From contig LJSV01000009.1 in assembly GCA_001314715.1 (NCBI GenBank), positions 1-64,000 of the forward strand: a stretch of 64,000 nt of DNA, written 5' to 3'. This document shows positions 12,926-52,847 of this stretch, one piece after another. Made by a program: the position numbers and the translations under genes. Source of the stretch: Rhodobacteraceae bacterium HLUCCA12 (GTDB lineage: Bacteria > Pseudomonadota > Alphaproteobacteria > Rhodobacterales > Rhodobacteraceae). A model generated the notes under the pieces. It searched no databases. It saw nothing but the letters and a program-made list of their open reading frames with translations, and was not told the origin of the DNA. Numbering within the stretch: the stretch's first letter is position 1; each line of letters opens with the position of its first letter.

Positions 12926-12941
12926 TTTACCAGTTGATAAA
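12926..12941 (+). promoter_or_regulatory. Possible RutR/PydR-type operator upstream of preT-preA
   Basis: The imperfect palindrome TTTACCAGTTGATAAA agrees with the E. coli RutR consensus TTGACCANNTGGTCAA at 11 of 14 defined positions. It sits in an AT-rich patch 64 bases upstream of the preT start. A closer match lies upstream of the second pyrimidine operon at 52535. The link is an inference from pattern and gene function. Confidence 0.4.
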
Positions 12942-13004
12942 AATTCAGGATGTGGCAAGCTGACGGAAAAAGAACACAAGCAACCCAACACCCGGAGGTA
13001 GCCC

Positions 13005-14339
13005 GTGACCAACAGCCCGCAGACCGACGGCATCGTGCCCGCGCGTCTCGATCCCGACGACCTGGCCCGGAATTTCGACGATCTCTACCCGTGCTTCGAC
13101 GACCACGAAGCCCGAGTCGCCGCCGATCGGTGCTATTTCTGCCACGATGCACCCTGCATCACGGCCTGCCCGACCGAGATCGATATTCCTCTGTTCATCC
13201 GCCAGATTCAGGCAGGCCAGCCCGAGGCCGCAGCGCGCACGATTTTCGACCAGAACATCATGGGCGCGATGTGCGCGCGTGTCTGCCCCACCGAAACCCT
13301 GTGCGAAGGCTCATGCGTGCGCCAAACCGCCGAGGGCCAGCCGGTCGAGATCGGTCGATTGCAGCGCTATGCGACCGATACCTTGCTGGAGCGGAACGAA
13401 CATCCCTATTCCCGGGCCGAACCGACCGGAAAGCGTGTCGCGGTGATCGGGGCCGGGCCGGCCGGCCTGGCCTGCGCGCACCGTCTGGCGATGAAGGGCC
13501 ATGACGTGGTGATCCATGACGCCCGCCCCAAACCCGGCGGGCTGAACGAATACGGCATTGCCGCCTACAAGGCCGCCGGCGGCATCGCCCAGGCCGAGGT
13601 TGACTGGCTCATGGGCATCGGCGGTATCCGGATCGAGACCAACAAGGTGCTGGGGCGCGACATCACCCTTGAAGGGCTGCGCAAGGTCTTCGACGCGGTG
13701 TTCCTGGGCATGGGGCTGGCCGGAGTGAACGCCCTGCGCGCGCCGGGCGAGGACAAGGACGGCGTGCGCGACGCGGTCGATTTCATCGCCGAGCTTCGCC
13801 AGTGCGACGATCTGTCGGGCCTGCCGATCGGGCGCCATGTGGTCGTCATCGGCGGTGGCATGACCGCGGTCGACGCTGCGGTGCAATCGCGGCTTTTGGG
13901 GGCCGAGCGGGTCAGCATGGTCTATCGGCGTGATCGTTCAGCGATGGGCGCGTCGGATTACGAGCTTGATCACGCGCAGACCGAAGGCGTGACGATCATC
14001 ACCAACGCGATGCCGGTGGCCGTGCACGGCAACGGCGCCGCGCGCGAGGTCGAATTCGCCTATACCTGGCAAGGCGCCGATGGCCTGGAACCGACCGGCG
14101 AGACATTCCGGCTGCGTGCCGACCAGGTGTTCAAGGCCATCGGCCAGCGGCTTGAGGGTTCGCCGGACGCGCTGGCCATCGAAGGCGGCAAGATCGTCGT
14201 CGACGCGCAGGGGCGCACCAGCCTGCCCGGCGTCTGGGCCGGGGGCGATTGTGCGGCGGGCGGCGAGGATCTGACCGTCACCGCCACCGCCCAGGGCCGC
14301 GACGCGGCCGAAGACATCCACGCCAGCATCATGGCCTGA
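13005..14339 (+). CDS. preT: Dihydropyrimidine dehydrogenase, NAD(P)H subunit PreT
   Basis: PreT is the flavin and Fe-S subunit that passes electrons from NAD(P)H to PreA for reduction of uracil and thymine. The N-terminus carries a double Fe-S cysteine set: C43, C46, C51 and C55 (CYFCHDAPC...C) and C90, C94, C100 and C104. A first Rossmann motif GKRVAVIGAGPAGLA (142-156) binds FAD, and a second, HVVVIGGGMTAVDAA (about 278), binds NAD(P)H. The C-terminal WAGGDCAAGGEDLTVTAT is the FAD-closing motif of the glutamate synthase small-subunit family. preA follows after 15 bases. Translation starts with ATG or GTG near an AGGAG-like GGAGGTAGCCC site. Confidence 0.93.
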   Translation: MTNSPQTDGIVPARLDPDDLARNFDDLYPCFDDHEARVAADRCYFCHDAPCITACPTEIDIPLFIRQIQAGQPEAAARTIFDQNIMGAMCARVCPTETLCEGSCVRQTAEGQPVEIGRLQRYATDTLLERNEHPYSRAEPTGKRVAVIGAGPAGLACAHRLAMKGHDVVIHDARPKPGGLNEYGIAAYKAAGGIAQAEVDWLMGIGGIRIETNKVLGRDITLEGLRKVFDAVFLGMGLAGVNALRAPGEDKDGVRDAVDFIAELRQCDDLSGLPIGRHVVVIGGGMTAVDAAVQSRLLGAERVSMVYRRDRSAMGASDYELDHAQTEGVTIITNAMPVAVHGNGAAREVEFAYTWQGADGLEPTGETFRLRADQVFKAIGQRLEGSPDALAIEGGKIVVDAQGRTSLPGVWAGGDCAAGGEDLTVTATAQGRDAAEDIHASIMA

Positions 14340-14354
14340 GGGAGGGCATCAACC

Positions 14355-15659
14355 ATGGCCAATCTTGCAAGCAATTTCATCGGCATCAAGTCGCCCAACC
14401 CGTTCTGGCTGGCCTCGGCCCCGCCGACCGACAAGGCCTATAACGTCGAACGTGCCTTCAAGGCGGGTTGGGGCGGTGTCGTCTGGAAGACACTGGGCTC
14501 CGAAGGGCCGCCCATCGTCAATGTCAACGGCCCGCGCTATGGCGCGATCTGGGGCGCGGACCGGCGGCTTCTGGGTTTGAACAACATCGAACTGATCACC
14601 GACCGTCCGCTTGAGGTCAATCTGCGCGAGATCAAGGAGGTCAAGCGCAAGTGGAAGGACCGCGCGCTGATCATCAGCCTGATGGTGCCCTGCGACGAGG
14701 AAAGCTGGAAGGCGATCCTGAAAGCCATCGAGGACACCGAGGCCGACGGGGTCGAGCTGAATTTCGGATGCCCGCATGGCATGGCCGAACGCGGCATGGG
14801 GTCGGCGGTGGGGCAGGTGCCCGAGTATATCGAGATGGTCACGCGCTGGGTGAAACAGCACTCGCGCATGCCCTGTATCGTCAAGCTGACGCCGAATGTC
14901 GCCGACATCCGCCGCCCGGCCGAAGCCGCGCACAAGGGCGGGGCCGACGCGGTGTCGCTGATCAACACGGTGAATTCCATCACCTCGGTCAACCTGGATA
15001 CCTTCAGCCCCGAGCCGATGATCGACGGCAAGGGCACCCATGGCGGTTATTGCGGCCCGGCGGTGAAACCCATCGCGCTGAACATGGTCGCCGAGATCGC
15101 GCGCAGCCCGGAAACCGCCGGTCTGCCCATTTCGGGCATCGGCGGCGTGACCACATGGCGCGACGCGGCCGAGTTCATGACGCTGGGGGCGGGCAATGTG
15201 CAGGTCTGCACCGCGGCCATGACCTATGGCTTCGGAATCATCAAGGAACTGACCGCCGGCCTGTCGTTGTGGATGGATCAGAAGGGGTTCAGCGAAACCG
15301 ACCAGATCGTGGGCAAGGCCGTTCCCAATGTCACCGACTGGCAGTATCTGAACCTGAACTACGTCACCAAGGCCCGGATCGACCAGGATCTGTGCATCAG
15401 TTGCGGGCGGTGCTACGCAGCCTGCGAGGATACCTCGCACCAGGCCATCGACATGTCGCCCGAGCGGGTCTTTACCGTCAAGGATGACGAATGCGTTGCC
15501 TGCAACCTGTGCGTCAATGTCTGCCCGGTTGAAGACTGCATCACCATGGAACGGGTCGAACCCGGCAAACTGGATGAACGCACCGGCGAGGTCGTGCCGG
15601 ACGAATACGGAAACTGGACGACCCATCCCAACAACCCGATGGCCAAGGCCGCCGAGTGA
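14355..15659 (+). CDS. preA: Dihydropyrimidine dehydrogenase catalytic subunit PreA
   Basis: PreA reduces uracil and thymine to the 5,6-dihydro forms, the first step of reductive pyrimidine catabolism. A dihydroorotate dehydrogenase-like FMN barrel (about 1-310) contains NFGCPHGMAERGMGSAVG, with the catalytic cysteine loop, and GGADAVSLINTVNS. Two 4Fe-4S clusters follow at C347, C350, C353, C357 and C380, C383, C386, C390. The 434-residue length matches bacterial PydA/PreA. The next enzymes, dihydropyrimidinase and beta-ureidopropionase, are not adjacent; they lie at 52.8-55.9 kb. Confidence 0.95.
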   Translation: MANLASNFIGIKSPNPFWLASAPPTDKAYNVERAFKAGWGGVVWKTLGSEGPPIVNVNGPRYGAIWGADRRLLGLNNIELITDRPLEVNLREIKEVKRKWKDRALIISLMVPCDEESWKAILKAIEDTEADGVELNFGCPHGMAERGMGSAVGQVPEYIEMVTRWVKQHSRMPCIVKLTPNVADIRRPAEAAHKGGADAVSLINTVNSITSVNLDTFSPEPMIDGKGTHGGYCGPAVKPIALNMVAEIARSPETAGLPISGIGGVTTWRDAAEFMTLGAGNVQVCTAAMTYGFGIIKELTAGLSLWMDQKGFSETDQIVGKAVPNVTDWQYLNLNYVTKARIDQDLCISCGRCYAACEDTSHQAIDMSPERVFTVKDDECVACNLCVNVCPVEDCITMERVEPGKLDERTGEVVPDEYGNWTTHPNNPMAKAAE

Positions 15660-15663
15660 TTGT

Positions 15664-15704
15664 CAGACACGCCCGGCCCGGTCTCATCGGGCCGGGCGCG
15701 TCTG
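15664..15704. terminator. Hairpin between convergent preA and nucleoside hydrolase
   Basis: A long inverted repeat pairs CAGAC at 15664-15668 with GTCTG at 15700-15704, and CGCCCGGCCCG at 15670-15680 with CGGGCCGGGCG at 15688-15698, with a seven-base loop. There is no T-run on either side. Its position between two convergent genes suggests a bidirectional terminator. Confidence 0.6.
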
Positions 15705-15768
15705 CCGCTGATCCTTTGTCAGGCAATCGGCTGCCACGGCGACGCGGGCAGGGGGCGATCCTGTCGCT

Positions 15769-16707
15769 CTAAAGCCGCGCAAGCCGGTCGTGCAGAAGCG
15801 CAAAGAACCCGTCGGCATCCATATCGCGCAGGAAGGTCGCATTCGGTGCCCGGTCGGTCACCCGCCACCAATCGGCAACAGTCATGCCCGCAGTGAACCG
15901 GCCTTCGGTCTCGATCTCGACGTTGATGAAACGCCCGTCGAACAGACCCGGCTCGATCAGCCAGGCAATCGTGCAGGGATCGTGCAGCGGCGCCCCCTCC
16001 GAGCCGTATTTCTGCTTGTCAAACCGCTCGAAGAAATCGGTCCAGCTGGCGACCGCCGGGCCGATCTTGCCCGGCATGGCGCTAAAGGCCTCGACACGCT
16101 GGCGCGTGGTCAGGGCCTTGTGCGTCACATCGAGCGGGACCACCGTCAGCTCCACGCCCGACGCGAAAACCCGCGCCGCGGCCTCGGGGTCGACATGGAT
16201 GTTGAACTCGGCCGCGGGGGTGATGTTGCCGACCTCGAAATAGGCGCCGCCCATCAAGACGATCCGCCCGATCCGCGGCACGATATCGGGCGCACGCTCC
16301 ATCGCGGTGGCGATGTTGGTCAGCGGGCCGATCGGCACCAGCGTCACGCTGCCCGCCGGTTCACGGCGCAGCGTCTCGATCAGGAAATCCACGGCGTGGC
16401 GATCTTGCAGCGGCATGCGCGGCTCGGGCAGGTCGATCCCATCGAGCCCGGTCTTGCCATGGACATGCTCGGCCGTCACCAGCGGGCGCTGCAACGGCCG
16501 GTCGCAGCCGGCGAACACCGCGATATCGGGCCGCCCGGCAAGCTCGCAGACCATACGCGCATTGCGCGCGGTCAGCGGCAGCGGGACGTTTCCCGCAACG
16601 CAGGTGATGCCCAGCACCTCCACCGCGTCGGGGCTGGCCAGGGCCAGCAGGATCGCAACCGCATCATCCTGCCCCGGATCGGTGTCTATGATGATCTTCT
16701 GCGCCAT
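15769..16707 (-). CDS. Inosine-uridine preferring nucleoside hydrolase
   Basis: The enzyme cleaves the N-glycosidic bond of ribonucleosides to free base and ribose. The N-terminal calcium-binding motif IIIDTDPGQDDAVAI (D8, D10, D14, D15) is diagnostic of the IunH/RihA family. The second metal aspartate lies in LHDPCTIAWLI near the C-terminus. GPLTNIA and NIHVDPEAA match the substrate pocket, and the length of 312 residues is normal. Its position next to preT-preA suggests it supplies uracil from uridine. The base preference cannot be read directly. It is transcribed toward preA, so it is a separate unit; a GGGGACAGG site precedes the ATG. Confidence 0.9.
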   Translation of the reverse strand: MAQKIIIDTDPGQDDAVAILLALASPDAVEVLGITCVAGNVPLPLTARNARMVCELAGRPDIAVFAGCDRPLQRPLVTAEHVHGKTGLDGIDLPEPRMPLQDRHAVDFLIETLRREPAGSVTLVPIGPLTNIATAMERAPDIVPRIGRIVLMGGAYFEVGNITPAAEFNIHVDPEAAARVFASGVELTVVPLDVTHKALTTRQRVEAFSAMPGKIGPAVASWTDFFERFDKQKYGSEGAPLHDPCTIAWLIEPGLFDGRFINVEIETEGRFTAGMTVADWWRVTDRAPNATFLRDMDADGFFALLHDRLARL

Positions 16708-16779
16708 CCTGTCCCCTTGTTTCGGCCGCGGCAGGCTAGGCGCTGGCCCTGATATTGTCGAGGGCCACGCGCCCAGCCC

Positions 16780-17697
16780 TCAGCCCTGTGCCGCCCAAAG
16801 ATAGAGCGCATAGGCTATCAGAAGGGCCAGCCCGGCCACGCGCCCGATCTGTGCGCCTTTCCAGAGAAAGACGCTCAGCGCCAGTGATGCCGCCAGTACC
16901 ACCGGCAGATCGAAGCTCAGGAACCGCGCGGTGATCGGAACCGGCGCGATCACCGCCGTCAGCCCCAGAATCCCCAGTACGTTAAAGATGTTGGAGCCGA
17001 CGATATTGCCGATCGCGATGGCCGATTGGCGCCGCATCGCCGCCACCAGCGAGGTTGCCAGTTCCGGCAGCGAGGTGCCGACCGCGACGATGCTCAGGCC
17101 GATGAAGGCCTCGGACAGGCCGAAATCGCGCGCAAGACTGACCGCGCCATCCACCAGAAAGCGCGCGCCCACCATCAAGGCCACAAGACCGCCCACCAGC
17201 CACAGCCCGGACACCCAGGGCCGGGGCATGGGTGTTGCGTCATTCTCCGCGCCGGTGTCGGCGGATTTCAGGAAGGCCAGTACCAGATAGAGCGCAAGCC
17301 CGGCCAACAGCGCCAGCCCTGACAGCCGCCCCAGCGTTCCGGTCATGAATATCGGCACCAGGATCAGCGCGGCGGCGATCATCACCACCGAATCGCGACG
17401 CAGCGCGCGGCCCTGGGGCTGCATCGGCGAAACCAGCGCTGCCAGACCCAGGATCAGCAGGATGTTTCCGATGTTCGATCCCAGCACGTTGCCGATGGCG
17501 ATGTCGGGCACACCGCGCAGCGCGGCATCGGCCGACACCAGAAGCTCCGGTGTCGATGTGCCGAATCCCACCACTGTCAAACCGATCACCAGCGGCGTGA
17601 CGGCGAACCAGCGGGCAATGCCCACCGCGCCGCGCACCAGCGCCTCACCACCCAGAAACAGCGCCACGAGGCCGCCGACCAGATAAAGCCAATCCAT
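16780..17697 (-). CDS. Calcium/sodium antiporter (CaCA family, YrbG-like)
   Basis: This 305-residue inner-membrane exchanger has two inverted five-helix repeats. Each alpha-repeat is visible: GFGTSTPELLVSADAALRG followed by GNVLGSNIGNILLILG, and VGTSLPELATSLVAAMRR followed by GNIVGSNIFNVLGILG. The glutamates in TPEL and LPEL and the asparagines in GSN bind cations. It belongs to the K+-independent YrbG branch of CaCA. Upstream on the same strand is a small membrane protein, 15 bases away, so the two may form a unit. Confidence 0.9.
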   Translation of the reverse strand: MDWLYLVGGLVALFLGGEALVRGAVGIARWFAVTPLVIGLTVVGFGTSTPELLVSADAALRGVPDIAIGNVLGSNIGNILLILGLAALVSPMQPQGRALRRDSVVMIAAALILVPIFMTGTLGRLSGLALLAGLALYLVLAFLKSADTGAENDATPMPRPWVSGLWLVGGLVALMVGARFLVDGAVSLARDFGLSEAFIGLSIVAVGTSLPELATSLVAAMRRQSAIAIGNIVGSNIFNVLGILGLTAVIAPVPITARFLSFDLPVVLAASLALSVFLWKGAQIGRVAGLALLIAYALYLWAAQG

Positions 17698-17712
17698 GTC
17701 CTTGAAACTTTC

Positions 17713-18036
17713 CTATTGACCGTTGCCGTTATTGCGCCGGCGATGATGTCGTCGTGTTTTCCAGCGGCGCCGGATCCTTATGATCGCGGCAGAAACCACC
17801 GGTCTGAGGGCGGGCATGTCGATGGCCAGGATCAAGAGACCGAGCGGGATCATCCAGAACCCGAGGATCGGCAGGAATCCCAGCAGCCCCCCGACCAGCA
17901 GCAGAAAGGCGACGGGAAGGCGCACCATCATGCCCGGCCGGCCATGCAGCGCCGCGATCAGCGGCGCCATGGCCGGAAAGCTCCGGGCCATCGCGCGCAG
18001 TTGTCGGTCCAGGCGTCGCTTGTGGCGGTCAGCCAT
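17713..18036 (-). CDS. Small membrane protein of unknown function (107 aa)
   Basis: The protein has a basic N-terminal helix (DRHKRRLDRQLRAMARSF), two adjacent hydrophobic segments (about 38-58 and 60-75) containing GLLGFLPILGFWMIPLG, and a very basic C-terminus with a KTRRHHRRR run. The short turn between the helices resembles the PGPGW-type transmembrane family found in roseobacters, but that is only a likeness. It ends 15 bases before the Ca/Na exchanger gene. A much longer open frame extends to 19053 in this frame but runs antisense to glpR and is rejected; ATG 18036 starts the credible part. Confidence 0.6.
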   Translation of the reverse strand: MADRHKRRLDRQLRAMARSFPAMAPLIAALHGRPGMMVRLPVAFLLLVGGLLGFLPILGFWMIPLGLLILAIDMPALRPVVSAAIIRIRRRWKTRRHHRRRNNGNGQ

Positions 18037-18194
18037 GTGTGCGCCGTCCTCGGTGGTCGTCGTGTAGGCCTCGGCCCGCCGATCGGGCATGGTGCGGGCG
18101 CATCTCTCGGGTCCGTCGTGTTCGGTGCCAAGGCGGCAACGGCAATGCAGATGCGCTGGGCGCGCCGATGATTCAACCCCGTGCGACGAAAATA

Positions 18195-18971
18195 TCAGGC
18201 GGCCTGGGCCGGGCGCGCAACGATCACACGCGTGGACCAGGCCGCACAGGCGGCCGCCAGCGGATCGCCCAGCGGGCGGTCGGTGAAGAAGCTGTCGATA
18301 TGCTCCAGCGAACCGATCCGCGCCGGGGCGGTGCGCTGGAACTTCGAGTGGTCGGCGACCAGCCAGGCCTTGCGCGCCTGGCCAAGGATGGTCCGGCTCA
18401 CGCCAACCTCCTCGATGTCGTAATCCAGAATGTCGCCGTCGCCATCCAGGGCCGAACAGCCGATCACGGCGAGGTCGAACTTGAACCGGCGAATCACGGC
18501 ATCGGTCAGATTGCCGGTCAACCCGCCGTCCGAACGCCGCAAGGTGCCGCCGGTGACGATGACCTGGCAATCCGGGTTCTCGGCCAGGATGTTGGCGACA
18601 TTCATGTTGTTGGTGACCACCATCAGCCCGGAATGGCGCAGCAATTCGCGCGCCACGGCCTCGGTCGAGGTGCCGATGTTGAGAAAGATCGACGCCCCTT
18701 CCGGGATTTCCGCCGCACAGGCGCGCGCGATCGCGCGCTTTTCCTCGGCCAGCAGGGCGCGGCGCTCCTGGTACCCGATATTGACGGTGCCCGATCGCAG
18801 GATCGCACCGCCGTGAACCCGCTCCAGCTTGCCGGCCTCGTCCAGTTCGGCCAGGTCGCGGCGGATCGTCTGAACCGTCACGCCGAACCGTTCGGCCAAT
18901 CCCTCGACCGTGACCTTGCCCTCGATCCGCGCGATCTCCAGGATCTGCGGAAGGCGAAAACCCTGCGACAT
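18195..18971 (-). CDS. glpR: DeoR-family repressor GlpR
   Basis: This is a glycerol-3-phosphate-responsive repressor by family and neighbourhood. The N-terminal DeoR helix-turn-helix reads GKVTVEGLAERFGVTVQTIRRDL, followed by ERVHGGAIL. The sugar-phosphate sensing domain shows NIGTSTEAVAREL, TNNMNVANIL, VTGGTLRRSDGGLTG and the C-terminal VADHSKF, as in GlpR. The start at 18971 is chosen for an AAAGGAAA site; an extension to 18995 adds eight residues without support. It lies directly downstream of glpD on the same strand, separated by about 290 bases that hold a structured repeat. TTCG-rich sequence just upstream of its start may be an autoregulatory site. Confidence 0.88.
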   Translation of the reverse strand: MSQGFRLPQILEIARIEGKVTVEGLAERFGVTVQTIRRDLAELDEAGKLERVHGGAILRSGTVNIGYQERRALLAEEKRAIARACAAEIPEGASIFLNIGTSTEAVARELLRHSGLMVVTNNMNVANILAENPDCQVIVTGGTLRRSDGGLTGNLTDAVIRRFKFDLAVIGCSALDGDGDILDYDIEEVGVSRTILGQARKAWLVADHSKFQRTAPARIGSLEHIDSFFTDRPLGDPLAAACAAWSTRVIVARPAQAA

Positions 18972-19087
18972 GATTCGTTTCCTTTCGGGCGGCAACTATG
19001 TTCGCCCCGTTTCGCCAAGGCAATGGTCCCGGGCCGAATACGCCGATCCCCATCGTGACGCTCTTGCCGGGCGCGCGCGCGGCGCCC

Positions 19088-19150
19088 CTTCATCTTGCCG
19101 GTCAATACGCCGGGGGTGAATGGCCGCAGGCCAGAGGGGGCAGCGCCCCC
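19088..19150 (+). repeat. Structured intergenic repeat, copy 1
   Basis: The head CTTCATCTTGCC...AATACGCCGGGGG (19088-19116) is followed by a small hairpin TGGCC-GCA-GGCCA and a GGGGGC-AGC-GCCCCC hairpin at 19136-19150. The same head and GC-hairpin layout recurs at 43.7, 43.9 and 56.9 kb. It lies between glpD and glpR. Confidence 0.75.
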
Positions 19151-19154
19151 TGAC

Positions 19155-19226
19155 GCCGCGCGCGTGAAACGCGCGCGGCCCGGCCCAACGCGCGGCGTGG
19201 CCCGGCAAGGCCGGGATGCGCCGCGC
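19155..19226. repeat. Tandem perfect hairpins next to repeat copy 1
   Basis: A 10-base perfect stem (GCCGCGCGCG / CGCGCGCGGC, loop TGAAA) occupies 19155-19179. It is followed by a nested hairpin at 19190-19226 with an outer arm GCGCGGCG / CGCCGCGC and an inner arm CCCGGC / GCCGGG. These could stabilise or terminate the glpD transcript. Confidence 0.6.
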
Positions 19227-19262
19227 GGCGGGAGCCGCTGCCCGGTCCGGGGCACGGGGCGC

Positions 19263-21026: not shown

Positions 21027-22748
<1,722 letters not shown>

Positions 22749-22855: not shown

Positions 22856-24652
22856 TCAGATCGGGGCACAGGCACGCGCCAGCCATTGCCCGGCCGAGGT
22901 CGAGACCAGCGGGCCGATCTCGGCCAGGACGCGGGCGTGATAGGCATTGAGCCAGTCGATGTCCGCCGCACAAAGCATCGCGCGCTGGATCAGGCGGGTG
23001 TCAATCGGCACAAGGGTCAGCGTCTCGAATTCCAGCATCGCGCGGCCCTCGCCAAGGTCCGGTGCCTGGTGCAGTGCGACCAGGTTCTCGATCCTGATGC
23101 CAAAAGCCCCCTCGCGGTAATATCCCGGCTCGTTCGACAGGATCATCCCGGCCTCCAGCGGCAGGGTCGAGGCGCGCGACAACCGCACCGGCCCCTCGTG
23201 CACCGAGAGCGCGGCGCCGACGCCATGGCCGGTGCCGTGGTCATAGTCCTGGCCCGCCAGCCACAAGGGATAGCGCGCAAGCGCATCGAGATGCGCACCA
23301 GCGACCCCGCGCGGAAACCGGGCACGCGACATGGCGATCATCCCTTGCAGGACGCGGGTATAGGCCGTGCGGCGGTCCGGCGCGACATCGCCGACCGGCA
23401 GGGTGCGGGTGATGTCGGTGGTTCCGTCGGCATATTGCCCGCCGGAATCGACCAGATACAGATCCCCATCGGCCAGCCGCCGGTTGGTCTGGTCGGTGAC
23501 GCGGTAATGGTTGATCGCGGCATTCGGCCCGGTCGACGAGATGGTTTCAAAGCTCAGATCCAGCAGCGCGCCGGTGGCGTGCCGGCAGGATTCCAGCTTT
23601 TTCGCCAGGTCGATCTCGGTCAGGTCGGTCAACCGGGCGCTGTCATACCAGGCCAGGAACTCGACCATCGCGGCGCCGTCGCGCCGGTGCGCGGCGCGCA
23701 TGCCGGCCAGTTCGGCCTCGGTCTTGCGCGCCTTGGCCATCAGGCAGGGATCGGCGCCCGGAACCCCTTTTGCCAGCGCGTCGGCCACGGCCAGGGGCGC
23801 GGTGGCCGGGTCGTATTGCACGGCTCGTTGCAGTTGACCGAGCGCGGGCGCGAAATCCGCCGGCGGGTGCTGCGTTACGTCGCTGTCAAGCGTGACCCCG
23901 GCCATCTTGGCTGCGTCGATATAGAGATCGAGGCGCGCATCGTCATGCAGCACGGCAAAGGCCTGCACCACCGGATTGCGCGCGATGTCGCTGCCGCGGA
24001 TATTCAGAAGCCATGAAATGCTGTCGGGCAGGGTCAGAACCAGCGCCGACGCACCCCGCTGGCCAAGCTCATCGGCAATGGCGCGGCGCTTCTGTGCGGA
24101 TGTGCGCCCCGCCAGTTCCAGGGGATGGGCGCGCACCGCGCCTTGGGGCGGGGCGGGCTGATCGGGCCAGATCGCATCGATGAGGTTGTCCGCGACAGGG
24201 CGCAGGGCGATCGTACTGCCCTCAAGCCCCTTGCGCAGGCGCGCGATCTCGTCGGGCGTATGCAGCCAGGGGTCAAAGCCGATCACCGCGTCGTCTGATG
24301 CCTGGGCGCGCAGCCAGTCGGCGGGCTGGGTGTCTGGCCAGTCCACGGGGCTGAAGGCCGCCAGATCGACCTGAGCGCGTACCTGCAAGCGGTAGCGTCC
24401 GTCGATGAACACACCCGCCACCTGCGGCAGCACGATGCAGAACCCGGCCGATCCCGTGAAACCCGTCAGCCAGGACAACCGCTCGTCGCGCGGCGCGACA
24501 TATTCGCCCTGATGCGCATCGGCGCGCGGCACGATGAAGCCCTGCAACCCGCGCGCCGCCAGTTCCTTGCGCAGCGCCGCCAGCCGGGGCGGGCCCTGAT
24601 CGGGGCGGGTTGCGGCACTGAAGGATTGCAGCGGCGGAAAATCGTTCGGCAT
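22856..24652 (-). CDS. Xaa-Pro aminopeptidase (M24B, aminopeptidase P family)
   Basis: This dinuclear metallopeptidase removes N-terminal residues preceding proline. At 598 residues it has the three-domain architecture of the eukaryote-like long APP: two creatinase-type N-terminal domains and a C-terminal pita-bread domain. Metal ligands are visible as the aspartates in LVDSGGQY and GTTDITRT, the histidine in HGTGHGVG, and the glutamates in SNEPGYY and FETLTLVP. It is cytoplasmic, with no signal peptide. It is transcribed in the same direction as pgm but 200 bases apart. Confidence 0.92.
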   Translation of the reverse strand: MPNDFPPLQSFSAATRPDQGPPRLAALRKELAARGLQGFIVPRADAHQGEYVAPRDERLSWLTGFTGSAGFCIVLPQVAGVFIDGRYRLQVRAQVDLAAFSPVDWPDTQPADWLRAQASDDAVIGFDPWLHTPDEIARLRKGLEGSTIALRPVADNLIDAIWPDQPAPPQGAVRAHPLELAGRTSAQKRRAIADELGQRGASALVLTLPDSISWLLNIRGSDIARNPVVQAFAVLHDDARLDLYIDAAKMAGVTLDSDVTQHPPADFAPALGQLQRAVQYDPATAPLAVADALAKGVPGADPCLMAKARKTEAELAGMRAAHRRDGAAMVEFLAWYDSARLTDLTEIDLAKKLESCRHATGALLDLSFETISSTGPNAAINHYRVTDQTNRRLADGDLYLVDSGGQYADGTTDITRTLPVGDVAPDRRTAYTRVLQGMIAMSRARFPRGVAGAHLDALARYPLWLAGQDYDHGTGHGVGAALSVHEGPVRLSRASTLPLEAGMILSNEPGYYREGAFGIRIENLVALHQAPDLGEGRAMLEFETLTLVPIDTRLIQRAMLCAADIDWLNAYHARVLAEIGPLVSTSAGQWLARACAPI

Positions 24653-24738
24653 CGGTCCCTCGGACAGAGTCTGATCGGCAAAGCTGTGCGGCGGATTGAC
24701 CGCAGGGTCAAGGGCGGGGCAGGGCGCAACAACGCATA

Positions 24739-45121: not shown

Positions 45122-46581
45122 CAGGCTCTCCCTTGTCCGACATGGCGGCCCGCCGCGGATGGGCGCGGCAGGGTGGCCTGCGCCTCGCGGATTGCGAACA
45201 GCCGCTCCTGGACCTCGGGCGCGGCGGGGCAGGCGCGCCCGGCTTTCATGTCAACATGCAGCAGCATCTGTTCCAGTGTGGCCACGGCTTCGCCCTCCGT
45301 GCCGATGCGGATGAAAAGGTGCAGGCGTTTTTCGTCGGCGGCCAGAACCTGAACAGAACCGGTCAACCGGTCGCCCAGCCGGGCCTCGCCCAGATGCATG
45401 ATATGCGTCTCGGCGGTGTAATAGCTGTGCCCGGCCGCGACATAGTCGAGGCCGGCGCCGATGTGACGCAAGAACGCATCCGTGGTTTCCGAGGCCGCGA
45501 ACAGATAGCGGCTTTCGGTCATGTGGCCGTTGTAGTCGATCCAGCCGGGCAGCACCTGCATCTGCGCCAGCGTCATCGGCGCCTGGGAAACCGCCGGCGG
45601 GGCCGACGCTGCGGCAGCCGTTGCGCGGGCGGCGTCATGGGCGTTGAGCACCCGGCCCGCCCCCCAGTTGCGCTCCTTGAGCGCGCGCAGGAATCCCACC
45701 AGGTTCGAATCGCGTATGCGTTCGAGGTCGCGAATGCTGTGCTGGCCGGATTGCGCGTCGGATTGTCCCGCGATCAGATCGACCAGCGCGTCGTTGAACT
45801 CGGGCACGTCTGTCAGCCGCGTCCAGGGCCAGCTCAGGCACGGGCCGAACTGGGCCATGAAGTGTTTCATGCCTGCCTCGCCCCCGGCGATCCGGTAGGT
45901 CTCGAACAATCCCATCTGCCCCCAGCGCAAGCCGAAGCCCATGCGAATGGCCTCGTCGATCTCTTCGGTGGTGGCGACCCCGTCCTTGACCAGCCAGAGC
46001 GCCTCGCGCCAGACGGCCTCTAGGAATCGGTCGGCGATATGGGCGTCGATTTCCTTGCGCACATGGAGCGGGAACATTCCAAGCTCGGTGAGGATTTCCT
46101 TTGCTCTGTCAATGATCTGCGGGTCGTTCCTGTGGCTTGGGACCACCTCGACCAGAGGCAGCAGATAGACCGGGTTGAACGGATGCGCGACGAAGATCGA
46201 CGCCGGGTTCACGGCGCCCTCCTGCAGTTGCGAGGGTTTGTAGCCCGAGGTGGACGAGCCGATCGGCACTTGTGGTGCGGCCTCCTGGATCGCGGCATAG
46301 ACGCGATGTTTCAGTGCCAGGTTCTCGGAGACAGATTCCTGCACATAATCAGCGTCTTGAGCGGATTCCTCAAGGGATTGAGAAAATGTCAGGCATCCAA
46401 TGTCTGGCATTGGGGTATCGGAAATCGCGGGCAAGGAGGCCTGGGCATTGGCCCGAACCTCGTTGATCTTGCGCGGTGTGTCGGGGTCGGGGTCGAAGAC
46501 CGCGACATCCCAGCCGTTGAGCAGAAAGCGCGCGGCCCAGCCGCCCCCGATGACGCCGCCGCCAATGATCGCGGCCTTCAT
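45121..46581 (-). CDS. L-carnitine dehydrogenase fused to a hotdog thioesterase
   Basis: The 486-residue protein has two parts. Residues 1 to about 315 are a 3-hydroxyacyl-CoA-dehydrogenase-type fold: the NAD motif AAIIGGGVIGGGWAARFLL, SSTSGYKPSQLQ (109-120) and AHPFNPVYLLPLVEV (132-146), as in L-carnitine dehydrogenase. An alanine-rich linker (318-335) leads to a hotdog thioesterase (from about 336) with GWIDYNGHMTESRYL. This fusion is known in alphaproteobacterial LcdH proteins, where the thioesterase part acts on betainyl-CoA. The joint product oxidises L-carnitine to 3-dehydrocarnitine and releases glycine betaine after BKACE cleavage. It overlaps BKACE by four bases and the acyl-CoA dehydrogenase by one. 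Confidence 0.9.
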   Translation of the reverse strand: MKAAIIGGGVIGGGWAARFLLNGWDVAVFDPDPDTPRKINEVRANAQASLPAISDTPMPDIGCLTFSQSLEESAQDADYVQESVSENLALKHRVYAAIQEAAPQVPIGSSTSGYKPSQLQEGAVNPASIFVAHPFNPVYLLPLVEVVPSHRNDPQIIDRAKEILTELGMFPLHVRKEIDAHIADRFLEAVWREALWLVKDGVATTEEIDEAIRMGFGLRWGQMGLFETYRIAGGEAGMKHFMAQFGPCLSWPWTRLTDVPEFNDALVDLIAGQSDAQSGQHSIRDLERIRDSNLVGFLRALKERNWGAGRVLNAHDAARATAAAASAPPAVSQAPMTLAQMQVLPGWIDYNGHMTESRYLFAASETTDAFLRHIGAGLDYVAAGHSYYTAETHIMHLGEARLGDRLTGSVQVLAADEKRLHLFIRIGTEGEAVATLEQMLLHVDMKAGRACPAAPEVQERLFAIREAQATLPRPSAAGRHVGQGRA

Positions 46582-47486
46582 TGCGGCGCCCTTTTTTGCA
46601 GGTGCAGGCGTTCGCGCACGGCATCGGGGCCGATGATGCGCGCGCCCATATTCTCGACGATGGTGGCCGCGCGTTCGACCAGCTGGGCATTCGTGGCGAG
46701 GACGCCTTTGTCCAGAAAGAGATTGTCTTCAAGCCCGACGCGGACATTGCCGCCGCCCAGAACCGACGCCGCCACATAGGGCATCTGGTTGCGGCCCAGG
46801 CTGAAGGCTGACCAGTGCCAGCCCTGAGGCACGTTTTTCACCATCGCCATGTAGGTGTTGAGATCGTCGGGCGCGCCCCAGGGCACGCCCATGCACAGCT
46901 GCACCAGCACCGGTTCGGGAATGATCCCTTCGCTGACCAGTTGCCGCGCGAACCACAGATGGCCGGTGTCGAAGGCCTCGATTTCAATTCGCACGCCGGC
47001 CTCGGTCATGCGTCCGGCCATGTCACGCAACATCCCCGGCGTATTGACCATGACGTAATCCGCCTCGGCGAAGTTCATCGTGCCGCAATCGAGGGTGCAG
47101 ATTTCGGGCCGGCATTCGACGATGTGGCGCACGCGCTCGGTCGCGCCGGCCATATCCGCTTGTTGCGACATGCGGTTCATCGCCTCGGTTCCGTCGAACA
47201 TCAGGTCGCCCCCCATGCCCGCGGTCAGGTTCAGAACGACATCGACATCGGCATCGCGAATGCGCTCGGTCACCTCACGATAAAGCGCCGGGTCGCGCGC
47301 CGGCACGCCGGTTTCGGGATCGCGGACATGGCAATGCACGACCGCAGCACCGGCCTTGGCGGCGTCGATGGCGGACTTGGCGATCGCTTCGGGCGAGCGG
47401 GGCACATGCGGGGACCGATCCTGCGTTCCGCCCGATCCGGTCACGGCACATGTGATGAAAACGTCGCGGTTCATGGTCAGTGGCAT
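46578..47486 (-). CDS. BKACE-family enzyme (3-dehydrocarnitine cleavage candidate)
   Basis: This is a 302-residue beta-keto acid cleavage enzyme (formerly DUF849). The zinc ligands are H51 and H53 in VVHCHVRDPETG, and the family segments LNLTAGMGGDLMFDG and GGNVRVGLEDNLFLDKGVLATN are present. The BKACE reaction on 3-dehydrocarnitine plus acetyl-CoA gives betainyl-CoA and acetoacetate. The start at 47486 follows GGGAG with good spacing; three consecutive ATGs make the exact start ambiguous. It is the first gene of the minus-strand operon, and its neighbours support the substrate choice. Confidence 0.88.
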   Translation of the reverse strand: MPLTMNRDVFITCAVTGSGGTQDRSPHVPRSPEAIAKSAIDAAKAGAAVVHCHVRDPETGVPARDPALYREVTERIRDADVDVVLNLTAGMGGDLMFDGTEAMNRMSQQADMAGATERVRHIVECRPEICTLDCGTMNFAEADYVMVNTPGMLRDMAGRMTEAGVRIEIEAFDTGHLWFARQLVSEGIIPEPVLVQLCMGVPWGAPDDLNTYMAMVKNVPQGWHWSAFSLGRNQMPYVAASVLGGGNVRVGLEDNLFLDKGVLATNAQLVERAATIVENMGARIIGPDAVRERLHLQKRAPQ

Positions 47487-47557
47487 CATCATCTCCCTTG
47501 GTTGCGCGCAGCCTAAGCCGACTTGCGCACCACTACTTGTCGATATACGCAATCATC

Positions 47558-48556
47558 ATGGCAAAAAGCGCAAACATCTTCGCGCCCTCGGCTGAACGGC
47601 TGGACATCGCCGTTCTGGTGCTGCCGCGCGCCTCGATCCTTGAGGTGGCCTCGGTGCTGGACCCGCTGCGCAATGCCAACCGGCATCTGGGCCGCGAGGG
47701 ATTTCGCTGGCGCGTGGTGTCGCCCGATGGTGCCGCCGTTCCCCTGACCTGCGGGATCGAACTGCCCTCGGTCGGGCCGCTGGCGGCGGCGGGGTCGGCG
47801 GATGTGCTGATCGTGATTGCCGGATACAACCAGTCCGAAATCGCCACCCGCCCGCTGATCGCGGAGCTGGCGCGATGCGCGGGGCGGTTTCAGGCCGTGG
47901 GGGCGGTCGATGCCGGACCTTGGGTGCTGGCGCGCGCCGGGTTGCTGGACGGGCATCGCGCCACCGTTCATTGGGAGGATCTGGAGGATTTCGCGCTCGC
48001 CCATCCGGCAATTGAGGTGGTGCCTGACAGGTTCGTCCTGTCGGGCAACCGCTTTACCGTTGGCGGCGCGGCGCCCGCGACCGAGTTGATGTTGCACCTG
48101 ATCGGTGCGCGGTGTGGCGCCGGTGTTGCCGGGCAGGTCGCGGCATCGTTTCTGTATGAGGCGCAGGCCGATGGGTCGCGCCCGCAGCGGCCCGGGATGC
48201 TGCCATCGGCCCGCGACCCCAGGTTGGCCGGGGCCTTGCGGACAATGAATGCGCATCTGGAAGATCCGCTGCCTCTGTCGGAAATCGCCCGCGACCAGGG
48301 CGTAAGCCTTCGGCGGCTGGAGCAGTTGTTTCACGCCGGAATGGGGGCCGGGCCCGGCGCCGCCTATCGGGAACTGCGCTTGCAGGCTGCCCAGCGGCTG
48401 ATCGTGGATACGCGCCACGGGCTGAGCGAGATCGCGCTGCGCTGCGGTTTCACCGATCCCACCAGCTTTGCCCGCGCATTTCGGCGCCGTTTCGGTGCGC
48501 CGCCCAGCCACCTGCGCAAGGAGGCACATGGCATGCATGAGGGCCGAGGTCTGTGA
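47558..48556 (+). CDS. GlxA/CdhR-type AraC-family regulator
   Basis: This 332-residue activator has an N-terminal DJ-1/PfpI-like domain (about 12-195, DIAVLVLPRASILEVASVLDP and VGAVDAGPWVLARAGLLDG) and two C-terminal helix-turn-helix motifs (PLPLSEIARDQGVSLRRLEQLF and GLSEIALRCGFTDPTSFARAF). CdhR of Pseudomonas, a regulator of carnitine dehydrogenase, and GbdR share this layout. It is divergent from the BKACE gene with only 71 bases between, so it probably controls the carnitine operon. The ligand is inferred. Confidence 0.82.
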   Translation: MAKSANIFAPSAERLDIAVLVLPRASILEVASVLDPLRNANRHLGREGFRWRVVSPDGAAVPLTCGIELPSVGPLAAAGSADVLIVIAGYNQSEIATRPLIAELARCAGRFQAVGAVDAGPWVLARAGLLDGHRATVHWEDLEDFALAHPAIEVVPDRFVLSGNRFTVGGAAPATELMLHLIGARCGAGVAGQVAASFLYEAQADGSRPQRPGMLPSARDPRLAGALRTMNAHLEDPLPLSEIARDQGVSLRRLEQLFHAGMGAGPGAAYRELRLQAAQRLIVDTRHGLSEIALRCGFTDPTSFARAFRRRFGAPPSHLRKEAHGMHEGRGL

Positions 48557-48696
48557 ATGTATGACATTATGCGAAGGCCGGATTGACGGCGCGTTCGAGC
48601 CATTCGGCGCGCGCTAGCAGGAATGTTGCCGATCCGTGAGCCCGTCAAAGCAACTGGCCGATGCCGGCCGGACGAACAGGCAAGTCGCTAGAAAAT

Positions 48697-48757
48697 CATT
48701 ATCTATCAAGAGCAAAGATAATGTTAATTGTCAGGCAATAAAATGACTGACAATTAA
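48697..48757. repeat. Two adjacent AT-rich inverted repeats between convergent genes
   Basis: CATTATCT at 48697-48704 pairs with AGATAATG at 48716-48723. Immediately after, TTAATTGTCAG at 48724-48734 pairs with CTGACAATTAA at 48747-48757. The second arm includes the tyrS stop codon. The patch is strikingly AT-rich for this genome. It may terminate transcription of both convergent genes, or be a protein-binding site. Confidence 0.65.
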
Positions 48758-50004
48758 TCCAGACTCACCAGTGCATGCCGCTTGCGCCCCGCCGTCAGTT
48801 TGAGCGGCGCGGTCAGATCCTGGGCCGTGATGACCAGACCGGCATCGTCGAGCGGCGCATCATTCAGGCGCGCGCCCCCTTCGGCGATCAGGCGCTTGGC
48901 CTCCTTGCCCGAGCGTGCCAGACCGGCGCGCACGAAAAGCTGCACGATGGAGACGCCCGCCGCAGCCTCGTCGCCTGTCAGCGCGACGCGCGGAAGATTT
49001 TCGCCCATGCCACCCTGTTCGAACACCGCGCGCGCGGTCTCTTCGGCGGCGGCGGCGGCCTCGGGGCCGTGGCACAGGGTCGTCACCGCATTGGCAAGCA
49101 CGATCTTTGCGGCGTTGATCTCGGCCCCGGAAAGCGCACCCAGCCGCTCGCATTCGGCAACCGGAATCTCGGTATAAAGCTTCAGGAACCGCCCGACATC
49201 GGCATCGGTCGTGTTGCGCCAGAATTGCCAGAACTCATAGGGGCTGAGCATGTCACCGTTGAGCCAGACCGCGCCGCCCTGGCTCTTGCCCATCTTGCGG
49301 CCGTCCGAGGTCGTCAGAAGCGGTGTCGTCAGGCCGAAGACATGACCATCGACGACCCGCCGCGTCAGATCGACCCCGTTGACGATGTTGCCCCACTGAT
49401 CCGACCCGCCCATTTGCAGCAGGCAGCCATAGCGGCGATGCAATTCCAGAAAGTCATAGGCTTGCAAGATCATGTAGTTGAATTCCAGAAACGACAGCGA
49501 TTGCTCACGGTCGAGCCGTGACTTGACGCTTTCGAACGACAGCATCCGGTTGACCGAGAAGTGCCGGCCGATATCGCGCAGGAATTCCAGATAGTTCAGC
49601 CCGTCCAGCCATTCGGCGTTGTTGAGCATGATCGCGTCGCCCGCCCCCTCGCCATAGTCGAGATACTTGGCAAAGACCTGTTTCATGCTGGCGATGTTGG
49701 CCTCGATCGCGTCGGGGGGCAGCAGCGGTCTTTCCTCGGACCGGAACGACGGATCGCCGACCTTGGTCGTGCCGCCGCCCATCAGGGTGATCGGCTTGTG
49801 CCCGGTCTTTTGCAGCCAGCGCAGCAGCATGATATTCAGAAGATGCCCGACATGCAGCGACTTCGCCGTGGCATCATAGCCGATATAGGCCGGAACAACC
49901 CCCTTGAGCAGCGCCGCGTCCAGCCCCTGCAGATCGGTGCAGTCGGCCAGAAAGCCGCGCTCGATCAGGATCTGCAGGAAATCCGATTTGGGTGTGTAGG
50001 TCAT
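48754..50004 (-). CDS. tyrS: Tyrosyl-tRNA synthetase
   Basis: This 416-residue class I synthetase charges tRNA(Tyr). The HIGH signature reads HVGH (51-54) after [11 protein letters not shown], and the KMSKS signature reads [14 protein letters not shown]. Conserved tyrosine-binding segments [13 protein letters not shown] and [12 protein letters not shown] are present. The C-terminal S4-like domain ([25 protein letters not shown]) binds tRNA. The start at 50004 ([10 protein letters not shown]) is preferred to an in-frame ATG 21 bases upstream. The stop codon lies inside an inverted repeat. The gene is divergent from anmK. Confidence 0.96.
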
Positions 50005-50069
50005 TTTGCAGTTGTCCTTGGCCAATGGCTGCGCTGTCTATAGACCGAAGGCCGGGGCGAGGAAAAGCC

Positions 50070-51164
50070 ATGTTCAAGCGCGAAACGATGCGGGTGTTGG
50101 GGGCGATGTCGGGCACATCGCTTGATGGCGTGGATGCGGCCGTGCTTGTGACCGACGGTGTCGAGATCGCGGGCTTTGGTGAAACCGCCTATCGCCCCTA
50201 TACCGAGGACGAGCGCGATATTCTGCGCGCGGCCCTCGGGGCGTGGCCGGGCGATCCGCATGCCGAGGCTGCGGCCGAGGTCGTGGAGACCGCGCATGCC
50301 GAGCTTCTGTCGCGCTTTGATCCGGTCGATCTGGTGGGGTTTCACGGCCAGACGCTTGCGCATGATCCGGGCGGGCGCGGCACGCATCAGGCCGGGTCGG
50401 GCGCGGTTCTGTCGCATGTGCTGGGCTGGCCGGTCGCCTGGGACTTTCGCTCGGCCGATGTGCGCCTTGGTGGTCAGGGCGCGCCGCTTGCGCCGTTCTA
50501 TCACCACGCCCTTGCCCGTCATATCGGCGCGGATGGCCCGGTTGCCTTTGTCAATATCGGCGGGGTTGCCAATGTCACCTGGGTCGATCCACGGATACCG
50601 GCCCCGGAACATGGCTGCCTTGCGTTTGACTGCGGCCCCGGCAATGCGGCGATGGACGACCTGATGCGGTCGCGCCGGGGGCTGGCGTTTGATGCGAATG
50701 GCGCGCTGGCGGCAACCGGCAGCGTCGACCACGCCCGGTTGCAAGCCTTCAGCGGGCATTCGTTCTTTCACCGGATGCCGCCCAAATCGCTGGATCGCGC
50801 GGCACCGGCGCCCGATGTCGCCGGGCTGGACGATGCCGATGCACTGGCAACACTGTCAGCGGGCGTGGCGGCGGGAATCGCCCTGGCGTTCGAGCATTTC
50901 CCCGAACCGCCCGCGCAGCTTTGGGTCTGCGGGGGCGGGCGACACAACCGCACGCTGATGGCCATGATCGCCGCCGGATGCGATTGCCCGGTCTCACCCG
51001 TTGAGGATGCGGGGCTGGAGGGCGACATGCTGGAGGCGCAGGCTTTCGCCTATCTGGCCGCGCGCGTCGTGCGGGGGCTGCCGACCTCGGGCCCGCGCAC
51101 CACCGGGGTCGCAGCACCGGTCGGCGGCGGCATCCTCAGCCGTCCCGGCGATATGGACGACTGA
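50070..51164 (+). CDS. anmK: Anhydro-N-acetylmuramic acid kinase
   Basis: AnmK opens and phosphorylates 1,6-anhydro-MurNAc to MurNAc 6-phosphate during cell-wall recycling. The ATP/phosphate loop GAMSGTSLDGVDAAVLV is at the N-terminus. HGQTLAHDPGG, FVNIGGVANVTWVD and FDCGPGNAAMDDL match the sugar and ATP sites of the family. WVCGGGRHNRTLM is the second phosphate loop. The length of 364 residues is normal. GAGGAAAAG precedes the ATG at 50070. No murQ is nearby. It shares a 65-base divergent gap with tyrS. Confidence 0.95.
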   Translation: MFKRETMRVLGAMSGTSLDGVDAAVLVTDGVEIAGFGETAYRPYTEDERDILRAALGAWPGDPHAEAAAEVVETAHAELLSRFDPVDLVGFHGQTLAHDPGGRGTHQAGSGAVLSHVLGWPVAWDFRSADVRLGGQGAPLAPFYHHALARHIGADGPVAFVNIGGVANVTWVDPRIPAPEHGCLAFDCGPGNAAMDDLMRSRRGLAFDANGALAATGSVDHARLQAFSGHSFFHRMPPKSLDRAAPAPDVAGLDDADALATLSAGVAAGIALAFEHFPEPPAQLWVCGGGRHNRTLMAMIAAGCDCPVSPVEDAGLEGDMLEAQAFAYLAARVVRGLPTSGPRTTGVAAPVGGGILSRPGDMDD

Positions 51165-51214
51165 CGCGCCGCCGCCGGTGCCAGTCGCGGTCATGCGACG
51201 GCCCCCCAGCCCGA

Positions 51215-51823
51215 TCAGGGCGCGCGCGGTTCGGGGGCGATCAGGCGTTCGAACAGGCGTTCCAGGAATGGTTCCGCGCCGTCAAGCGGGTCGGTGCCGT
51301 CGCGGATCAGCCGGATCTGGGCGTCGAAATCGGCATAATGCTGGGTCAGCGCCCAGATGGAAAAGATCAGGTGATACGGGTCCACCGGGGCCAGGCGCCC
51401 TTCGCGGCTCCATCGCGCGATAAGCGCCGCGCGGTCATCGACCAGCATCCTGAGGTCACGGGCAATGAAATCGCCCAGCCGCGGGGCGCCTTGCAGGATC
51501 TCGTTCGCGAACAGCCGGCTTTCGCGTGGAAATGCGCGCGACATCTGCAACTTGCGCCGCATGTAGCCCATGATCTCGTCGCGCGGCTCTCCCTGCGGAT
51601 TCATGGCGCGCAGGGGTTCCAGCCAGCTGGCCAGCAGGTCTTCCATCAACAGCCGGTGGATGGCCTCCTTGTTGTCGAAATAATAAAGCAGGTTCGGCTT
51701 GGACAGGCCCGCCTCCGCGGCGATCTGGTCCAGCGTCGCGCCGCGAAACCCCTGTGCCGAAAAAACCTCGAGCGCCGCATCGAGGATGCGCTTGCGATTG
51801 CGCTTCTGAATGCGGGTGGTCAT
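51215..51823 (-). CDS. RutR-like TetR-family regulator, copy 1
   Basis: This 202-residue repressor has an N-terminal HTH (ILDAALEVFSAQGFRGATLDQIAAEAGLSK with NLLYYFDNKEAIHRLL). The ligand domain closely follows E. coli RutR along its length: WLEPLRAM, RRKLQMSRAFPRESRLFANEIL, LAPVDPYHLIFSIWALTQHYADFDAQI. RutR senses uracil and thymine. Its ATG overlaps the stop of the second, paralogous TetR gene by four bases, so both are made from one message. It is convergent with anmK. Control of the pyrimidine operon next door is inferred. Confidence 0.85.
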   Translation of the reverse strand: MTTRIQKRNRKRILDAALEVFSAQGFRGATLDQIAAEAGLSKPNLLYYFDNKEAIHRLLMEDLLASWLEPLRAMNPQGEPRDEIMGYMRRKLQMSRAFPRESRLFANEILQGAPRLGDFIARDLRMLVDDRAALIARWSREGRLAPVDPYHLIFSIWALTQHYADFDAQIRLIRDGTDPLDGAEPFLERLFERLIAPEPRAP

Positions 51824-52482
51824 GCGGTGCCGGGCCCATGCCGGGGGTCAAGCCCGATCCCCCGCAGGATGATCTGGCAGACCGTTTCCGTGGCCTCGTC
51901 CCATTGCGCGTCGGACAAGGGTCCATGGTTGAGCGTTTCGACCTGATGGGCGAAATCGGCGTAATGCTGGGTCGTGGCCCAGATCATGTACAACAGCCAG
52001 CGCGGTTCGATCGGCTGGATCGCGCCGGACGCGATCCAGCGGCGGATCACCGCAACGCGCGACTCGGTCCATTCGCGCAAGGTCGATTCCAGATAGTCCT
52101 GGATGATCGGCGCGCCGTGCATCACCTCGTTGGCCCAGACCTTGGACCCATAGCGATGTTCGCGCGAGAGCTGCATCTTGCGGCTGATGTAACGGCGCAG
52201 CGCCACCTCGGGCGAGGCCGAGGTTTCAAAGGAATCGGCGGCTTCAAGCCAGACGGTAAAGATGCGCTCGACCACCCGGCGATAGAGGCGTTCCTTGGAC
52301 GAGAAGTAATAGTGCAGATTGGCCTTGGGCAGCCCGCAGGCATCGGCGATGGCCTGCATCGTCGCACCGCCGAACCCGGATTCGGCGAACACACGTTCCG
52401 CCGCGTCCAGGATGGATCGCTCGGTTTCTTCGCGCATCTCCGCGCGCGAGCCCGTTTTTTCGGCACCTTCACCGTGGCTCAT
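51820..52482 (-). CDS. RutR-like TetR-family regulator, copy 2
   Basis: This 220-residue paralogue of the neighbouring regulator has its HTH in ILDAAERVFAESGFGGATMQAIADACGLPK and NLHYYFSSKERLYRRV. The effector domain contains FETSASPEVALRRYISRKMQ, QPIEPRWLLYMIWATTQHYADFAHQVE and a C-terminal VCQIILRGIGL, again RutR-like. The start at 52482 is used; a frame extending to 52512 adds ten residues. A RutR-type palindrome lies 53 bases upstream, so autoregulation and control of the divergent pyrimidine operon are likely. Two tandem RutR-type genes are unusual and may form heteromers or read different ligands. Confidence 0.85.
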   Translation of the reverse strand: MSHGEGAEKTGSRAEMREETERSILDAAERVFAESGFGGATMQAIADACGLPKANLHYYFSSKERLYRRVVERIFTVWLEAADSFETSASPEVALRRYISRKMQLSREHRYGSKVWANEVMHGAPIIQDYLESTLREWTESRVAVIRRWIASGAIQPIEPRWLLYMIWATTQHYADFAHQVETLNHGPLSDAQWDEATETVCQIILRGIGLDPRHGPGTA

Positions 52483-52847
52483 CGGTGCGCCCCCCGGTCT
52501 TGCTGTCGGCACGCGAAACGGGCCGCGAAAAATCTTGACTGGTTGGTCAAGTCTGTTAGCGTTACATCAACCCGGACCGGGCGCGCAAGCGTCAGACACC
52601 GGGGGTCGTTGAAAAGATTATGCCCGGTCGTCAGTCCTGACAACCCAGCCAATAACGCGCCCGGGCTTGCGGAGTTGAGACCATGGCGCACCATTGCTGC
52701 CCAAAGTCCGACCGGCCGATCGCCCGCCGCATCGCGGGCGACAAGGGGGGCATCCGCACGCTTTGATCCCATGCCGCGCACCCTGATGGTGGCGCGTTTT
52801 CCATTCGAGGGCGGCGCCAGATCGCCCCGAACAACAGGAGAGAAAGA
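52483..52847. other. Divergent control region of the pyrimidine operon
   Basis: This 365-base gap separates the TetR genes from the beta-ureidopropionase gene. It holds the RutR-type operator at 52535-52550. TTGACT (52535-52540) and TAGCGT (52557-52562) 16 bases apart form a plausible promoter toward the operon. Transcription from there would give a leader of about 280 bases before the start at 52848. No gene was recognised in the leader. Confidence 0.5.
52535..52550 (+). promoter_or_regulatory. RutR/PydR-type operator
   Basis: TTGACTGGTTGGTCAA matches the RutR consensus TTGACCANNTGGTCAA at 12 of 14 defined positions. It overlaps the putative -35 hexamer of the pyrimidine operon and lies 53 bases before the second TetR gene. 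Repression by the adjacent regulators is inferred. Confidence 0.7.

Follow-up and report, generated by a model that had tools for sequence, protein, structure and literature searches.

From the 64-kb stretch of DNA analysed here (the window; positions 1 to 64,000 of LJSV01000009.1, the first part of contig C3 in the 3.7-Mb, 52-contig genome of Rhodobacteraceae bacterium HLUCCA12), a reductive pathway of pyrimidine degradation can be deduced whose genes are distributed over two operons 39 kb apart, both on the forward strand and each preceded by a palindrome resembling the operator of the Escherichia coli regulator RutR. The first operon consists of preT (13005–14339), assigned to the electron-transfer subunit of dihydropyrimidine dehydrogenase by its position beside preA and by orthology while passing no NCBIfam cut-off, and of the dihydropyrimidine dehydrogenase gene preA (14355–15659; NF006183, 712.5 bits, equivalog cut-off 335). 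The second operon begins with pydC (52848–54098), coding for a carbamoylase or beta-ureidopropionase-like amidohydrolase that surpasses the cut-offs of the allantoate amidohydrolase and hydantoinase/carbamoylase subfamilies (NF006769, 674.9 bits, cut-off 452; TIGR01879, 366.4 bits, cut-off 204) and is beta-ureidopropionase-like by its context. It is followed by the dihydropyrimidinase gene pydB (54406–55908, probably starting with the ATG at 54454; TIGR02033, 597.8 bits, equivalog cut-off 393) and by the genes of an ATP-binding cassette (ABC) transporter (56109–60083), comprising an ATPase (56109–56888), two permeases (56916–57905 and 57902–59038) and an NMT1/THI5-like binding protein (59079–60083). 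A first-pass annotation of this DNA had credited the two operons with the full reductive route including uptake; the pathway genes bear this out, and pyrimidines as transport substrate are suggested by the genomic context only.

Upstream of the second operon and on the reverse strand lie two regulatory genes overlapping by 4 bp, tetR1 (51820–52512, with a GTG start; an alternative ATG at 52482 fits the alignments better) and tetR2 (51215–51823). Their products are the only two PF08362 (TetR_C_3) matches in the genome, with 164.3 bits for TetR1 and 147.9 bits for TetR2 against a cut-off of 25 bits, and both also exceed the TetR_N cut-off. RutR is the best NCBIfam match of either protein, albeit below its cut-offs (TIGR03613 RutR equivalog, 368 bits required, 205.4 for TetR2 and 190.3 for TetR1; NF011584, 230 bits required, 189.6 and 170.9, respectively). 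Hence, the earlier description of both genes as RutR-like is appropriate at the level of the group, while neither protein reaches the RutR equivalog.

The two predicted operators are found exactly where they had been placed by the first-pass annotation. Site A (52535–52550, forward strand; TTGACTGGTTGGTCAA) is located between tetR1 and the pydC operon, 22 bp from the GTG start of the former and 297 bp from pydC, and site B (12926–12941, forward strand; TTTACCAGTTGATAAA) ends 63 bp before the preT start. Using as yardstick the sequence TTGACCANNTGGTCAA, which we take to be the E. coli RutR consensus, site A agrees in 12 and site B in 11 of 14 positions, and in the 16-bp palindrome TTGACC-N4-GGTCAA that, with close variants, we assume for RutR-type operators the core of site A is kept at 9 of 10 positions. 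The good consensus match of site A thus stands, but calling it a near-perfect palindrome was generous, as it is asymmetric with only five of seven pairs complementary. Site B, previously considered a weaker palindrome of the same design, pairs at six of seven positions and belongs to a separate, highly conserved operator class of the form TTTACC(A/G)NTTGATAAA rather than being a degenerate version of A. In the window, TTGACYNNNYGGTCAA with at most one mismatch gives four matches (two sites, each on both strands) where 0.05 are expected, and TTTACCNNTTGATAAA with at most two mismatches gives one where 0.01 are expected, figures that are descriptive since both patterns were picked after the sites were known, so that the independent evidence has to come from conservation. 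On the scale of the whole genome, site B is the sole place with no or one mismatch to its pattern, and site A is one of 11 such places for TTGACCNNNYGGTCAA.

For the preT side, upstream regions were compared in 52 genomes representing 52 genera, the window genome included. Within 150 bp of preT, the highest-scoring match to TTTACCNNTTGATAAA is complete (14/14) in 41 of them, reaches 13 in three and 12 in two and amounts to 10 or less in the remaining six, whereas the control stretch from −350 to −200 never scores above 11. Information content of the fixed columns is 1.65–2.0 bits compared with at most 0.29 bits at 30 to 5 bp upstream, values that are partly selected because only the 46 genomes scoring at least 12 were used. 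Within the larger family sample, the exact B pattern is present in 185 of 295 genomes. Among the 47 genomes with a RutR-like TetR, a B-type box (at least 12/14) precedes preT in 45 and an A-type box takes its place in the other two (G013 and G039), so the conservation check suggested with the first-pass annotation came out positive for the preT orthologues.

Downstream of the box, at offsets of 25–36 bp, the same 46 genomes share a second, moderately conserved block, TGTGGCAnnCT, which by its location might be a −10 region; in the window it corresponds to tgtggcaagctg (12951–12962, forward strand), perhaps the −10 region of preT. Together with the −35-like right half of the box (TTGATA), this block is what would be expected if site B were simply a conserved promoter core, consisting of a −35 element and its flanks, and no repressor site at all. 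Such an explanation is highly improbable, given that the left half, TTTACC, is conserved as well as the right one, that the box is palindromic at six of seven pairs, and that it is degraded or absent in eight of the ten well-completed genomes which have lost the regulator and still keep preT. In three genomes (G001, G003 and G031; loci L092, L094 and L133), the B box is preceded at a distance of 17 bp by a second RutR-like box (TTGACC...ATAAA), which gives preT the look of having a tandem operator there.

The last argument derives from natural losses of the regulator. PF08362 proteins were found in 248 of the 295 family genomes and are absent from 47, absence being defined as no match at an E value of 0.001. 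Sixteen of these 47 TetR-less genomes possess a preT orthologue (called at 1e-80), 15 of them with a readable promoter after omission of G157, where the preT start is missing. A preT box of at least 12/14 is kept in six of the 15 promoters, but in only two of the ten from genomes at least 90% complete. Partial matches at the expected place, which may be remnants, occur in three further members of these ten (G286, G221 and G085), and in the remaining five no match above background was detected in the preT promoter. A genome-wide count of the exact B pattern in well-completed genomes (167 of 227 with TetR versus one of 33 without) points in the same direction but is confounded by the many TetR-less genomes that lack preT and is not relied on here.

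At the pydC end, 43 of the 47 loci with a neighbouring TetR gene have a box in the interval from tetR to pydC, again in agreement with the conservation that had been proposed as a check, and none of six TetR-less genomes has one; in G012 and G039 the pydC-side box is kept with the TetR gene on another contig. In addition, in seven TetR-less preT regions, three of which (G063, G286 and G125) include pydC, no full A-type core was found. The pydC-side boxes are not uniformly of the A type: five genomes (G004, G032, G035, G047 and G052) have hybrids of one A and one B half, and two (G041 and G055) carry symmetric B-like boxes. This interchange of half-sites between the promoters is the best argument from the sequences for a single kind of protein recognising both.

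It also bears on the idea of two separate circuits, with the RutR-like pair acting only at site A and pydC and an unrelated, co-lost regulator owning the preT box. The fixed differences between B and A, and the B-type boxes of G167 and G063, two genomes without a detected PF08362 TetR, would be in line with such a division; considering the swapping of A- and B-type halves and the rarity of boxes at both promoters in TetR-less genomes, it appears quite improbable. We rather conclude, with a probability of roughly 85%, that one repression circuit, relieved by uracil, acts through sites A and B as its operators and spans both operons. The single regulon for a split pyrimidine pathway put forward by the first-pass annotation is accordingly supported by box conservation, by the rarity of the boxes in the absence of TetR, by half-site interchange and by the conservation of residues for ligand and DNA binding in both regulators.

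Several observations weigh against a common circuit. In G018, G054, G056 and G057, the pydC-side box is missing despite the presence of TetR. Conversely, G167, whose genome is 100% complete, retains a perfect 14/14 B box and G063 one of 13/14. Among TetR-less genomes below 90% completeness, the preT box is kept in four of five, where the TetR gene has perhaps been missed. Site A by itself is unconvincing, as TTGACCNNNYGGTCAA at up to two mismatches is no commoner in the whole genome (134 + 132 places) than its reversed control (150 + 166). Finally, the Fisher tests for the preT box (45/47 versus 2/10, p = 1.1e-6; 45/47 versus 6/15, p = 1.1e-5), comparing TetR-bearing genomes from a 61-genome sample with TetR-less ones from the 295-genome sample and omitting G059 with its single, distant TetR (42%) from both groups, are indicative only, since related genomes are not independent.

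In the proposed circuit, dimers of the RutR-like proteins (TetR2, and TetR1 at least at site A) would, without uracil, cover the preT-preA promoter at site B and the promoter of pydC, pydB and the ABC transporter genes at site A, keeping both operons shut and, from site A, also limiting expression of the tetR1-tetR2 operon itself. Uracil, and perhaps thymine, would fill the conserved pocket and release the dimers, whereupon the whole reductive route and the transporter would be switched on together despite the 39-kb gap. For this organism, we infer binding, repression by dimers, the inducer and its releasing effect, as well as overlap with −35 elements, from box placement and from what PMC10891134 reports on RutR.

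How far site A governs pydC deserves separate consideration, as it could serve autoregulation of tetR1 and tetR2 only, with the pydC operon starting elsewhere in the 297-bp leader and outside its control. This would fit the distance of just 22 bp to tetR1, and in G037 a second box is indeed located 44 bp before pydC. A second box ahead of pydC was not found in the window, and TTGACT at the left end of site A (52535–52540) is a candidate −35 partner, with a 16-bp spacer, of TAGCGT (52557–52562, forward strand), a candidate −10 element in a stretch conserved in G037 and in G222, a genome of the same genus. In both relatives, this promoter-like arrangement toward pydC is kept, and the gap is occupied there by an aminotransferase gene, presumably resembling those of beta-alanine:pyruvate aminotransferases. 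Exclusive autoregulation is therefore unlikely, and control of pydC from site A is preferred.

An aminotransferase gene is also recognised in seven of 13 other loci with a long gap that were counted together with G037. In the window, the leader (52563–52847, forward strand) probably bears the scar of such a lost, pydD-like gene between site A and pydC: compared with G222, identity is 93% over 29 bp at the promoter and 100% over 19 bp at the 3' flank (52809–52827), and an inner match of only 16 bp (52691–52706; E value 0.66) is concordant in G222 and G037. The alternative that the leader has nothing to do with an aminotransferase gene was weighed against these matches and is considered less likely. 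The nearest homologue elsewhere in the window genome is 38% identical. G222 and G037 are likewise informative with respect to the split of the pathway. In most relatives, preT-preA, tetR and pydC-pydB form one cluster, the separation being an exception in the family, and these two genomes carry preT and the tetR-pydC part on separate contigs, with a gene that we take to be aroB-like directly before preT. As they share the separation, the split predates the window genome.

In a tree of 66 proteins (midpoint rooting), TetR1 and TetR2 form separate clades, with E. coli RutR placed beside TetR2, the widespread regulator that is the usual single copy in the family. Residues at positions 51, 53 and 56 are S (120 of 120), P (103) and L (119) in TetR2 and P (91 of 92), A (90) and H (89) in TetR1, while K52 and K62 are kept in all sequences of both groups. 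The uracil contacts of E. coli RutR, given as W77, Y97, W167, Q171 and Q179 in PMC10891134, are conserved in 92 of 92 TetR1 and 117–120 of 120 TetR2 sequences, and both window proteins hold all five. This tally counts some genomes twice (G222 also as L235, G037 also as L249) and leaves out the TetR1-like protein of G021 (L169), the protein L167 of G059 and the TetR2-like one of G056 (L163).

Among the best 80 of 231 TetR1 loci, pydC is present in 74, tetR2 follows in tandem in 70 and a box precedes tetR1 in 77; in 38 of the 70 tandem pairs, a tetR2 start codon is located no more than 20 bp ahead of the tetR1 stop, and the two genes often overlap by 4 bp as they do in the window. Moreover, 44 of these 80 loci have two boxes 30–37 bp apart, mostly 32–34, and in the family sample such a pair occurs at five of 12 TetR1 genes compared with none of 41 TetR2 genes from genomes without TetR1. 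A single asymmetric box, TTGACTG..TGGTCA, is present in the window and in its closest relatives with TetR1. As to preT, a B box of 13 or 14 out of 14 is found in all eight other readable promoters of loci with both genes, and none in L305, which has tetR1 and no tetR2 within the retrieved stretch. As a tentative suggestion, TetR1 and TetR2 might be uracil sensors that separated long ago and act jointly on one control region, either through two dimers side by side on paired operators spaced by about three helical turns or through a heterodimer bound to asymmetric boxes like site A, with TetR2 alone at the preT box. Under this scheme, one ligand would be sensed by two proteins, and the combination of the two in charge would differ between the upper and the lower half of the pathway.

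The regulon as such is of a known kind and well supported, and its two-repressor variant deserves testing. Judged by its title as cited in PMC7332683, the work of Hidese et al. (2012) describes PydR of Pseudomonas putida as a RutR-like repressor acting on the reductive pathway's gene for dihydropyrimidine dehydrogenase. At title level, the present system is alike in the RutR-like repressor proposed for this gene, and the predicted operator before preT is conserved and mostly absent without TetR; what the present analysis adds are the TetR pair, the existence of two operator classes and the split. According to PMC10891134 and the structure entries 3loc, 4jyk and 6z1b, E. coli RutR is similar in being a PF08362 TetR, with a recognition helix nearly identical to that of TetR2 and the listed uracil contacts in common, as well as in the 16-bp palindrome that separates the regulator gene from a divergent catabolic operon, but it governs the oxidative rut operon and carAB instead of a reductive pathway. 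Regulons of the RutR group have been predicted in 68 genomes from 13 groups of Proteobacteria, with a motif changing by taxon (PMC5343134); the text sections compared name neither RutR targets nor motif letters for Rhodobacterales, though its figures and supplements or RegPrecise may list sites. Likewise, literature titles and abstract openings, a search not extending to RegPrecise, did not yield a description of the TetR1/TetR2 pair or of the preT box. What the family offers is an operator for dihydropyrimidine dehydrogenase that is strongly conserved and tied to the presence of its regulator, with natural losses of the latter serving as controls, which makes the regulon directly testable, and, with often overlapping genes and paired operators, a two-repressor arrangement raising the question why two sensors with look-alike uracil pockets are kept.

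Further members of the regulon were sought among the other ten A-type places with no or one mismatch in the genome, eight of which are in long open frames and two, on contigs C30 and C49, are not; extension to two mismatches was rejected, the pattern then being no commoner than the control. The C30 site (G000:C30:30935-30950, L175; TTGACCGTTTGGTCAG) precedes an unassigned ABC transporter operon and is not counted as a member, as nothing clearly ties this transporter to pyrimidines. Among 61 genomes, its binding protein has a counterpart at threshold in G037 alone, where CTGACCGGACGGTCAA, with a full core palindrome, occurs at about the same distance. The C49 site (G000:C49:7621-7636, L180; TTGACCATTTGATCAA) is an intergenic A-type palindrome near a WYL-domain gene. 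A third RutR-like palindrome of the window, TTGACCCTGCGGTCAA (24696–24711, reverse strand), has on its 3' side, 44 bp from the start codon, a reverse-strand gene (22856–24652) that we take to be aminopeptidase P-like.

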